DNA of 64,000 nucleotides from Microcella alkaliphila (GTDB lineage Bacteria; Actinomycetota; Actinomycetes; Actinomycetales; Microbacteriaceae): NCBI RefSeq assembly GCF_004216855.1, contig NZ_SGXT01000014.1, forward strand, positions 248,001 through 312,000. Direction: 5' to 3'. This document shows, piece by piece, positions 35,202 to 52,493 of the stretch (position 1 is its first letter; each line of letters begins with the position of its first letter). The notes below the pieces were generated by a model. That model did not search any database. It saw only the letters and a program-made list of their open reading frames with translations, and was not told the origin of the DNA. The position numbers and the translations under genes were made by a program.

Positions 35202-37520
35202 GTGAGCGAGAACGTCGCGCCCGCCATCCCCCAGCCCGACACGGTCGAGAACGCGATCGCGACGCCCGACAAGCACCAGCCGTATGACGCGCTGGGCCTG
35301 AAGGCCGACGAGTACCAGCAGATCCGCGAGATCTTGGGCCGCCGCCCGACGAGCGGCGAACTCGCCATGTACTCGGTCATGTGGAGCGAGCACTGCTCGT
35401 ACAAGTCCAGCAAGGTGCACCTGCGTCAGTTCGGCCAGAAGGTGTCGGACGAGATGCGCGAGCACCTCATGGTCGGCATGGGCGAGAACGCCGGCGTCGT
35501 CGACATCGGCGAGGGCTGGGCCGTCACGTTCAAGATCGAGAGCCACAACCACCCGAGCTACATCGAGCCCTTCCAGGGTGCGGCGACCGGCGTCGGCGGC
35601 ATCGTGCGCGACATCATCTCGATGGGCGCCCGCCCCGTCGCCGTCATGGACGCCCTGCGCTTCGGCGCGATCGACCACCCCGACACCGCGCGCGTGCTGC
35701 CTGGCGTTGTGAGCGGCATCAGCTTCTACGGCAACTGCCTCGGCCTGCCGAACATCGGCGGCGAGACGTGGTTTGACCCGGTGTACCAGGCGAACCCGCT
35801 CGTGAACGCGCTCGCGGTCGGGGCCCTCCGCCACGAAGACCTGCACCTCGCCAACGCCCGCGGCGTCGGCAACAAGGTCGTGCTGTTCGGCGCCCGCACG
35901 GGCGGCGACGGCATCGGCGGCGCGTCGATCCTCGCCTCCGACACATTCAGCGAGGGCGGGCCGACCAAGCGCCCCGCCGTGCAGGTGGGCGACCCGTTCG
36001 CCGAGAAGGTGCTCATCGAGTGCTGCCTCGAGCTCTACCGCGAGGGCCTCGTCGAGGGCATCCAAGACCTCGGCGCCGCCGGCATCTCGTGCGCGACCAG
36101 CGAGCTCGCCTCGAACGGCGATGGCGGCATGGTCATCGACCTCGACGCCGTGCTGTTGCGCGACCCGAGCTTGACCGCCGAAGAGATCCTGATGTCGGAA
36201 AGCCAGGAGCGCATGATGGCCGTCGTCGAGCCGTCGAAGCTCGACGCGTTCCTCGCCGTCACCGCCAAGTGGGACGTCGAGACCAGCGTGCTCGGCGAGG
36301 TCACCGACACGGGCCGCCTCGTCATCCACTGGCGCGGCGAGAAGATCGTCGACGTCGACCCGCGCACCGTCGCGGTCGACGGCCCCGTGTACAACCGGCC
36401 TATGCAGCGCCCCGAATGGCTGGATGCGCTCAACGCGGATTTCGCGCGCGCCCTGCCCCGCGCATCCGACGATTCTGAACTGCGCGCCCAGGCGCTGCGG
36501 GTACTCGGCGGGCCGAACCAGGCCGACGCGAGCCTCATCACCAATCAGTACGACTACTACGTCATGGGCAACACGGCGCTCGCGATGCCCGACGACGCGG
36601 GCATGATCCGCATCGACGAAGAGAGCGGGCTCGGCGTCGCCCTCGCCACCGACGCGAACGGCCGCTACTGCCAGCTCGACCCCTACGCGGGCGCGCAGCT
36701 CGCGCTCGCCGAGGCGTACCGCAACGTCGCGGCGACCGGCGCGAGCCCCCGCGCCGTGAGCGACTGCCTGAACTTCGGCAGCCCCGAGAACCCCGAGGTG
36801 ATGTGGCAGTTCGCCCGCGCCGTCGAGGGTCTCGCCGATGGCTGCCTCGAGCTCGGCATTCCGGTGACGGGCGGCAACGTGTCGTTCTACAACCAGACCG
36901 GCGAGGTGCCGATTCACCCCACCCCGGTCGTCGCCGTCATGGGCGTCATCGACCACGTCGACCGGCGCCTGCCCTCGGGCTGGCAGGACGAGGGCGAGAA
37001 CCTCTACCTGCTCGGCGTCACCCGCGATGAGCTCGACGGTTCGGCGTGGGCCGGCGTCATTCACGACCACCTCGGCGGCGTGCCCCCGCTCGTCGACCTC
37101 GACGCCGAGAAGAACCTCGCGGGCCTCATGGCCGCCGCCGCGGAAGAGGGCCTCGTCACGAGCGCCCACGACCTCAGCGACGGCGGGCTCATGGTCGCGC
37201 TCGCCGAGGGAGTCCTCCGCTTTGGCGTCGGCGCCCGCGTCTGGCTCACCGAGTTCATGGAACGCGACGGACTCGACGTCACCGCCGCTCTCTTCGCCGA
37301 ATCGGGCGCGAGGATGCTCGTCTCCGTTGCGCGCGAAGACGACGTCAAATTCCGTGGCCTGTGCGAGGGGCGGCTCGTGCCCGTGACCCGCATCGGGGTC
37401 ACTGATGCCGAGGTCGACGGGCTAGAGCTGCAGGACCGCTTCACCCTCAGCCACGCCGAACTGCACCACGCCCACCGCGACACGCTGCCGGCACGGTTCG
37501 GAGCCGTCGTCGGGGGCTAG
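35202..37520 (+). CDS. purL: FGAM synthase subunit PurL (small type)
   Basis: 772 residues, GTG start with AGGAG upstream. This is the short PurL that works with PurS and Pur[22 protein letters not shown] at the N-terminus, [23 protein letters not shown] (ATP/metal site), and [11 protein letters not shown]. It converts FGAR and ammonia to FGAM. Its last 29 codons form one arm of the 87-bp direct repeat that bounds the island, so the 3' end was probably supplied or restored by the integrating element. Its stop overlaps that of the aminopeptidase gene on the other strand (CTAG). Confidence 0.97.
37434..37520 (+). repeat. Island left direct repeat (purL 3' end, intact gene)
   Basis: Codons for the last 28 residues of PurL plus the stop. 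It matches 52407-52493 at 80 of 87 positions; four of the seven differences are synonymous third-base changes or alternative stops. Confidence 0.85.
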
Positions 37521-39019
37521 GCCCGCTCCATCCACTTCTCGATTTCGCTCGCGGTGCGAGGGAAATCGGCAGACAGCAGTTCGCAACCGTGCTCCGTGAG
37601 AAGCACGTCGTCCTCGATGCGCACTCCGATTCCGCGAAACCGTTCGGGCACGCTGAGGTCGTCCTCGTGAAAGTAGAGCCCCGGCTCGATGGTGAAGACC
37701 ATGCCCGGTTCGAGTACACCGTCGAGGTAGACCTGTTGGCGGGCGAGTGCGCAGTCGTGCACATCAAGTCCGAGGTGGTGGCCGGTGCCGTGGATCATGA
37801 ATCGACGATGGTACTGCGCCTCCTCATGGAGGGAGTCTTCGGCGCTCACCGGAATCAGCCCCCACTCGCTGACATGGTGAGCGATCATCCGCATCGCGGC
37901 GTCATGCATGTCTCGGAAGCGGGCTCCCGGCTTCGCCGCCTCGCGTGCGGCATCCGCAGCCTCCAACACGGCATCGTAGACCTGGCGCTGCATGTCGGTG
38001 AAGGTGCCCGATATCGGAACAGTACGTGTGATGTCGGCGGTGTACAGGCTGTCGACCTCAACACCCGCATCGAGGAGGAGGAGGTCTCCCCGACGAATGG
38101 GCCCATCATTGCGAGTCCAGTGCAGGGTGCACGCGTGCGACCCCCCGGCGACGATCGTTTCGTACCCGACGCCGTGGCCCTCCGCTCGTGCCCGCCGATA
38201 GAACGCGCCTTCCACGAGTCTCTCTCCCCGGTCGTGGTCGATGCAGTCACGCAGCTGGCCGATGACGTCGTCGAAGCCTCGCTGCGTTGCGGCGACAGCG
38301 CGACGCAACTCGGCAATTTCGAAGGTGTCTTTCACGAGGCGCAGCTCGCTGAGCACCTGAGCGAGGCGCTCATCATCGTCTCGCGGAACCGTGCCGCGCT
38401 CCGCGTCACGCCCGGTGCGCACGCTCTCACGCCGGCGATCGACCACAGCGGTCACCGTCGGGTCTGCGTTCCTCAGCACCGCGATGTCGCCCTCCCACGA
38501 CTCGAGGGCTCCGTCGAATTCATCGAGAGGCCGGGTGTCCATTCCGAGGTCACCGGCGACCTGCTGAAGAGTGGGTCGACGACCAGTCCAGAGTTCGCCG
38601 ACCTCATTGTTCGCATAGAACTCGTCGGAGTCGTGCCCGGAGGATGGTCGAAAGTACAGGATGGCGCGATGGCCCCCGACGATTGGTTCCAGCACAAGAA
38701 TCGACCCAGCGACGGTGTCTGACCCCCATGCGGTGAGATACGCGAAACCGGAGTGCGGGCGGTACGTGTAGTACTGGTCATTCGCGCGGACCGACTGTGA
38801 TCCCGCCGGCACGATCACGGTCACACCCTCAAAGGCTGGAGACAGCCTGGCGCGGCGCCTCTGTGCGAAAGCGGCAGCGTCTCGCTGCGCCCCAGGTTCG
38901 ACCGATGCCTCGGCCCAACCCTGCTTGATGTAGTCGCGAAATGTATCTGACGTTGGAGTGGTGGAACGATTACGGCTCGTCAGAGGAAGAGGTTCTCGTG
39001 CGGTCTGATTGTCGTTCAT
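37517..39019 (-). CDS. Aminopeptidase P family (M24) metallopeptidase
   Basis: 500 residues. An AMP_N-type N-domain (about 45-190, with [17 protein letters not shown]) precedes the pita-bread M24 domain. The five metal ligands are visible: Asp in [14 protein letters not shown], Asp in [12 protein letters not shown], His in [13 protein letters not shown], Glu in FTIEPGLYF and Glu in [10 protein letters not shown]. It should remove N-terminal residues before proline, or cleave a related amide. It is the most distal gene of the island, ending exactly at the purL junction. Within the island it may finish breakdown of an N-carbamyl or dipeptide product (inference). Confidence 0.9.
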
Positions 39020-39058
39020 GCTGGCCCCTGTCGGCGTAGTGATGGAAATCGAGTGGTG

Positions 39059-52345: not shown

Positions 52346-52373
52346 GTGATAGCTGCACACTTCGCGGTGCCAA
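52346..52373 (-). promoter_or_regulatory. Candidate promoter of the island operon
   Basis: Read on the minus strand, TTGGCA (52373-52368), 16 bases, then TATCAC (52351-52346), about 55 bp before hyuA. AAGTGCAC and AAGTGTGCA flank it as near-repeats, possible half-sites for PucR. A run of seven T residues precedes the -35 element. Confidence 0.35.
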
Positions 52374-52406
52374 AAAAAGTGCACTTTGCCCATCTCGCAC
52401 AGTGAC

Positions 52407-52493
52407 GACGGCTTCACCCTCAGCCACGGCGAGCTGCACCACGCCCACCGCGACACGCTGCCGGCCCGGTTCGGCGCCGTCGTCGGGGGTTAA
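52407..52493 (+). pseudogene. purL: purL 3'-end remnant (island right direct repeat)
   Basis: The fragment still reads as the last 28 residues of PurL, starting [16 protein letters not shown] and ending RFGAVVGG with TAA. It has no start codon or upstream gene body. It is the displaced original or donor end of purL. The stop lies inside a perfect 16-bp palindrome, CGGGGGTTAACCCCCG (52484-52499). Confidence 0.85.

Follow-up and report, generated by a model that had tools for sequence, protein, structure and literature searches.

Genomic islands inserted into the 3' ends of genes, such as guaA, icd and tRNA genes, carry attachment (att) repeats. A different route to variable gene content is described in PMC5635113 (2017), which, in its accessible part, reports double recombination at the core genes that flank hotspots without mobile elements. 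For displaced 3' regions in the immunity arrays of the type VI secretion system (T6SS) and in Rhs loci, the accessible part of PMC5361080 proposes homology-facilitated illegitimate recombination and calls such events quite rare. Here we describe an island of 15 kb between the genes purL and ctpE of Microcella alkaliphila (GCF_004216855.1). The DNA studied, referred to as the window, spans 64,000 nucleotides (NZ_SGXT01000014.1, 248,001-312,000 of the forward strand). 'ctpE' is the name that an earlier reading of the sequence, the initial annotation, gave to the P-type ATPase gene right of the island. The last 87 bp of purL stand again at the far end of the island. We consider it probable that the island is a horizontally acquired catabolic cluster brought in by double homologous recombination in purL and ctpE, with the second copy of the purL end as a relic.

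The left flanking core gene purL (35202..37520, plus strand) is complete, scoring 1002 bits against the NCBIfam PurL cut-off of 648 and matching the Pfam AIRS and FGAR-AT linker models. A direct repeat pairs 37434-37524 with 52407-52497 at 91% identity across 91 nucleotides, and the repeat unit is 14,973 bp long. Up to and including the stop codon, 80 of 87 positions are identical (0.9195), as the initial annotation had stated, and both copies end in a stop, TAG at 37518-37520 and TAA at 52491-52493. A chance origin is ruled out by the BLAST E-value of 9e-33; a 150-bp purL-end query matches over 86 bp at 93% with an E-value of 4e-33.

The two copies of the repeat differ in character. Copy 1 (37434..37520, plus strand) is the end of the complete purL, and at the sites differing between the copies it departs from the relatives at third codon positions only. 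Copy 2 (52407..52493, plus strand) lacks the remaining gene and shows one first-position and one second-position codon change, at which 23 of 23 and 22 of 23 relatives side with copy 1. From its stop to ctpE there is a gap of 68 bp, equal to the gap at the empty site of the relative G010. Because of the changes in conserved codons and this matching gap, copy 2 is read as the displaced native purL end and copy 1 as the working end. The idea of copy 2 as a second working purL end was rejected, since it is only an 87-bp piece altered at conserved codon positions. We also noticed a perfect 16-bp palindrome, CGGGGGTTAACCCCCG, which spans the stop of copy 2 (52484-52499) and is seen by eye at the purL stop of G010 as well. 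It is perhaps a native terminator.

Between the copies, the guanine-plus-cytosine (GC) content is 0.631, against 0.696 in the left flank and 0.721 in the right flank. The island was assigned 11 genes, all of them on the minus strand. At the tight left junction, the stop of the first island gene, encoding an M24 peptidase (stop at 37517-37519), overlaps the purL stop. In these three respects, too, the description in the initial annotation was borne out. ARAGORN found no tRNA or tmRNA in the window.

The state of the purL-ctpE site was compared across 26 genomes of the genus, several of which are fragmented drafts. They are numbered from G000, the window genome, in which the window's contig is C3; purL was matched in 25 of the 26, the window genome included. 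The site is empty in 15 (G003, G004, G007, G008, G009, G010, G011, G012, G016, G017, G019, G020, G022, G023 and G025), with 3-174 bp from purL to ctpE as measured from the match ends. In two, G000 and G002, the site is taken by the island. Another five contain different inserts (G006, 0.9 kb; G013, 14.3 kb; G018, 0.7 kb; G021, 2.2 kb; G024, 3.7 kb), and in three ctpE was not found beside purL (G001, G005 and G015, the last with only 2.4 kb of sequence). Content therefore differs between the same two core genes in relatives, as at the described hotspots. The initial annotation had proposed looking for an empty allele or for different cargo between the same repeats. The empty allele is present in those 15 of 25 genomes; other cargo does occur at the site in relatives, as it had predicted, but no repeat of the own purL end was found with it in the 1.5-39 kb of downstream DNA searched. 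Neither the sharing of the 15 kb by all close relatives nor a composition equal to the flanks, which together would have told against integration, was observed, given the 15 empty sites of 25 and the GC content of 0.631 against 0.696 and 0.721. The island is a horizontal acquisition.

Some of the other inserts could be described by their genes. By Pfam, the DNA after purL in G005 (L035:1195-14310) encodes a multicopper oxidase, a heavy-metal P-type ATPase, a phosphoketolase, a GH65 protein and an ABC1 kinase. After the purL stop of G013 (L037 reversed) follows, as judged by eye, nearly the same cargo of ~13 kb, the Pfam scan having been made in G005 only. The 2.2-kb insert of G021 (L039:5900-7830) comprises an N6/N4 DNA methylase gene and a neighbour of 200 amino acids without a Pfam match, perhaps a restriction-modification pair.

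Window-unique sites, at which G002 and G010 share a base that the window does not have, mark the borders of the acquired DNA. In purL, 6 of the 1000 sites compared at 35950-36949 are of this kind, against 60 of 570 for 36950-37520 (Fisher p = 4e-21), and in ctpE the figures are 37 of 349 for 52600-52949 and 57 of 1950 for 52950-54899 (p = 4.6e-9); the p-values are descriptive, because the tract limits were chosen after viewing the profile. Recombination breakpoints, relative to G002 and G010, are thus found in both flanking core genes, which is a further trait of the described hotspots. They delimit an approximate imported tract, 36950..52950, which would comprise the 3' part of purL, the island, copy 2 and the 5' part of ctpE. 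By these site patterns, the ancestry of the last ~0.57 kb of purL and of the first ~0.4 kb of ctpE differs from that of the DNA outside. The 60 unique sites of the purL part include 42 synonymous and 18 non-synonymous ones, and at 44 of them the window allele is found in at least two of 21 other species. Since 44 of the 60 alleles are shared within the genus and 42 are synonymous, import fits better than selection.

These data also bear on vertical inheritance, by which the island would descend from a common ancestor of the window genome and G002 and the locus would simply have changed faster. The same site and the same left junction in both genomes agree with such a descent. However, the island's 1-kb bins are 82-91% identical to G002, when many bins elsewhere reach 93-99% (range about 80-100%). 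A faster rate does not explain why window-unique alleles, mostly synonymous and shared within the genus, become abruptly more frequent inside purL, and the breakpoints in purL and ctpE count against vertical descent as well. Vertical inheritance is therefore barely credible.

Along the 64 kb, G002 is for the most part the nearest genome on the left, at 93-99% in many 1-kb bins; the stretches at ~36.0-36.7 kb and 55.3-62 kb resemble G010, and the rest is mixed. Identity to G002 drops to ~80% near 31 kb and 57 kb. A partial-window comparison had placed the window genome as sister of G010; this placement was dropped, as G002 is closer over most of the left part in the 64-kb comparison. The switches between G002-like and G010-like stretches point to frequent recombination between species of the genus.

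The second carrier, G002, is informative about the repeat. It has the whole island with the same left junction as the window and no repeat, which shows that the repeat is not needed for the island to occupy this site. The right junction of G002 is unlike that of the window and contains ~250 bp matching neither the window nor G010. A degenerate purL end right of the G002 island was sought in 266 bp and was not convincing: the score against copy 2 was 24, reached by 9 of 300 shuffles (maximum 35), and that against the G002 purL end was 21, reached by 41 of 300.

In the initial annotation, the repeat was taken as what integration into a gene's 3' end leaves behind. Under site-specific integration, an element with an att site matching the purL end would have inserted into the 3' end of purL, supplying the gene with a new last 87 bp, and the recombinase would later have been lost or would act in trans. 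The geometry fits, with the gene end restored, the displaced end at the far side and a unit of 14,973 bp, and two species share the left junction. Tyrosine recombinase genes do exist in the window genome, where PF00589 has four matches, some of which we take to be XerC/D-type housekeeping genes. None of these matches is on contig C3, profile scans found no recombinase among the 11 island proteins, and the Resolvase-family model PF00239 has no match in G000 or G002; the earlier remark that no recombinase remains is correct to this extent. Of the features expected of an element residing in a gene's 3' end, a recombinase was not found within the island, nor were other elements with the same repeats found at this site in the 24 relatives; on the far side, the gene end is directly repeated in the window genome and not in G002.

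The repeat was further searched for in the relatives themselves. For each of 24 relatives, the last 150 bp of its own purL were compared with 1.5-39 kb of downstream DNA, and in none of them, insert carriers included, was a repeat of the own purL end found; the DNA searched was shorter than 4.5 kb in G012, G015, G016, G021 and G025. The strongest match, 32 bp with an E-value of 8e-7, lies at the ctpE start of G017. The same ctpE-start stretch gave 30-32 bp in G012 and G007, and G007 also gave a 50-bp match (E-value 1e-5). This likeness of purL end and ctpE start in G007, G012 and G017 (L048, L047 and L043; 30-32 bp, E-values 8e-7 to 1e-4) is perhaps due to chance in coding DNA of like composition, or to a small patch of homology at the gene borders.

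Among 398 genomes of the family, the 91-bp query found a second copy of the purL end only in the window genome. This family-wide negative is weak outside the genus, because no more than two candidates per genome were scored at first and the other genera are divergent. Three other genomes with two matches to the query were set aside: in G223 and G399 one match is purL and the other lies in a stretch without purL, and in G278 neither stretch contains purL at an E-value of 1e-3. Among 87 loci elsewhere that carry relatives of the island operon (described below), neither purL nor ctpE was found beside the operon at an E-value of 1e-25 in the stretches compared.

A reading of the repeat as the signature of an integrase is thus not supported, given the repeat-free G002, the 24 relatives without an att-like repeat in the DNA searched, and the lack of PF00589 matches on contig C3 and of PF00239 matches in G000 and G002. 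The absence of the right-hand copy from G002, the restriction of a second purL end to one genome of 398 and the lack of purL beside the operon elsewhere all weigh in the same direction, and we regard site-specific integration as unlikely. A more specific form of it, in which the purL 3' end is an attachment site for an undescribed recombinase acting in trans and the island, as a non-autonomous element, brings its own 87 bp to restore purL whenever it integrates, seems very improbable. A limited literature search found nothing related to purL as an integration site, and we claim no wider absence.

The initial annotation had listed a lost integrase, an integrase in trans, and homologous exchange with a donor carrying its own purL end. 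Of these, homologous exchange is the best supported, because purL and ctpE contain the breakpoints of the mosaic tract; an integrase signature is left unsupported. In such an exchange, a donor segment would have taken the place of the resident DNA through one crossover in purL (near 36.95 kb) and another in ctpE (near 52.95 kb). It would have carried the island in full along with copy 2, flanked by the last ~0.57 kb of purL and the first ~0.4 kb of ctpE. We infer that both breakpoints stem from one event and that the donor was a lineage of the genus outside the sample. As both copies lie inside the tract, the repeat was most likely already present in the donor.

How the repeat arose in the donor lineage may be pictured as follows. 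Island DNA with its own purL end attached, in the manner of G002, would have joined a chromosome with an empty purL-ctpE site. The join may have been homologous within purL on one side and non-homologous on the other, so that both purL ends were kept, and no dedicated recombinase would be needed. Alternatively, a free circle of the island and a purL end, formed by a rare deletion, could have inserted itself in the donor lineage through one RecA crossover with the purL of an empty site. Reinsertion of a circle yields the observed structure with both purL ends, likewise without a dedicated recombinase. However, neither a circle nor a second location was seen, and its outcome is indistinguishable here from that of a linear one-sided join; we hold it to be decidedly improbable.

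Several observations count against import by double homologous recombination as set out above. Identity between copy 1 and the G002 purL end is no higher than 77%, while the island and the adjoining purL part are both at 86%. This value requires at least one further exchange or gene conversion, and without it neither the homologous-exchange nor the integrase model predicts the 77%. Further mosaic switches occur near 36.0, 55.3 and 62 kb, with only 64 kb compared. Since mosaic stretches also occur at other places in the three genomes, this tract does not stand alone, and import in a single event is unproved. The donor lineage is not in the sample, and no clear microhomology is seen by eye at the right junction. 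Moreover, the interval left of purL is also variable, with ~0.2-4.2 kb to the next conserved gene, so that purL-ctpE is not shown to be hotter than its neighbours. We do not claim it as a hotspot far above them.

The island genes are described here from the right end, in the direction of their transcription. A HyuA-type hydantoinase/oxoprolinase subunit (50243..52291) matches PF01968, PF05378 and PF19278 on the longer open reading frame (ORF) 50243-52456; its start, an ATG behind AAAGGAG, was picked by eye. It is followed by a HyuB-type subunit (48543..50246; PF02538, 542 bits; 97% to G002), a substrate-binding protein (47508..48539; PF13407), a sugar-type ABC ATPase (45930..47450; PF00005 in two stretches) and a sugar-type ABC permease (44924..46003; PF02653). 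Next come a short hydantoinase A-like protein (43569..44867; PF01968, E-value 1e-7) and an S-methyl-thiohydantoin-desulfurase-like (SMeTHD) protein (42502..43608, with a mechanical ORF start), which matches PF06032 and PF20906 and is far under the NCBIfam equivalog cut-offs. A PucR-type regulator (41009..42577; HTH_30 and GGDEF_2) and a GAF-like protein (40566..41012; Pfam GAF, E-value 8e-4, 20.4 bits, below the cut-off of 22.4) follow. By profile matches, the last two genes are a fusion of GNAT and AAA ATPase (39059..40396) and an M24 family Xaa-Pro aminopeptidase-like gene (37517..39019), whose stop overlaps that of purL. All are on the minus strand. Right of the island, ctpE (52562..54991, plus strand) matches the E1-E2 ATPase model and adjoins purL in 15 relatives.

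The core of the island is a hydantoinase/lactamase-type operon for uptake and hydrolysis. The best NCBIfam matches of HyuA and HyuB are the caprolactamase-type models NF050156 and NF050157, and in this the two subunits resemble the caprolactamase systems as described in the accessible part of PMC6061476. However, they differ in staying well under the equivalog cut-offs, with 502 bits of 1000 for the CapA-like HyuA and 263 of 1000 for HyuB. In this operon, the ABC importer would take up a cyclic amide compound, HyuA and HyuB would open the ring with ATP, and the PucR-type regulator would be in control.

The 87 loci used to compare the operon consist of 80 loci of HyuB relatives from named genomes (80 of 91 loci kept) and 7 loci from the family. 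At least 24 of the 87 show the order hyuA-hyuB-sbp-abc-perm-hydA2-SMeTHD on one strand. HyuB relatives at 76-83% are found in Arthrobacter and other Micrococcales; this is no more than suggestive of an Arthrobacter-like origin of the operon. Within the 26 genus genomes, HyuA at an E-value of 1e-50 has matches only in G000, G002 and, at 34%, G020.

The view of the island as one functional set applies to nine of its genes, whose counterparts are grouped together in other Actinobacteria; the other two, for the M24 peptidase and the GNAT-AAA protein, seem to have been added. The M24 gene is a further copy of an aminopeptidase gene that is widespread in the family, matched in 391 of 398 family genomes at an E-value of 1e-100, and the other copy in the window genome is on contig C7 at 59% identity. 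Of 18 operon-bearing genomes searched, 15 have a GNAT-AAA homologue at 51-55%. In four loci of ~4.3 kb each around such homologues, no M24 or operon gene was found beside them at an E-value of 1e-8.

The locus can now be set beside the systems named at the outset. As in islands at the 3' ends of guaA, icd and tRNA genes, the gene end is restored and a second copy stands at the far end; here, however, no recombinase was found, a second carrier is without the repeat, and homologous breakpoints lie outside it. A repeated gene end around an island hence does not prove an integrase. With the T6SS immunity and Rhs loci, as far as they are covered in the accessible part of PMC5361080, it shares new DNA anchored by homology on one side and an old 3' end pushed to the far side, whereas in our case the displaced end belongs to a housekeeping gene, the cargo is a catabolic operon and the event was deduced, not observed. 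The displaced purL end gives the event a direction and is usable in a search for the donor. The locus resembles the hotspots in the accessible part of PMC5635113 in that a conserved core gene stands on either side of cargo that varies, some alleles are empty, the flanking genes contain breakpoints and no recombinase was found in the island. The differences are that a displaced core-gene end has been kept and that the exchange is seen between species of one genus. The locus offers a between-species example of a 15-kb catabolic operon entering a small genome, without mobile-element machinery of its own, through recombination in the neighbouring housekeeping genes. It is most likely an integrase-less exchange site of a known kind, marked by a scar.

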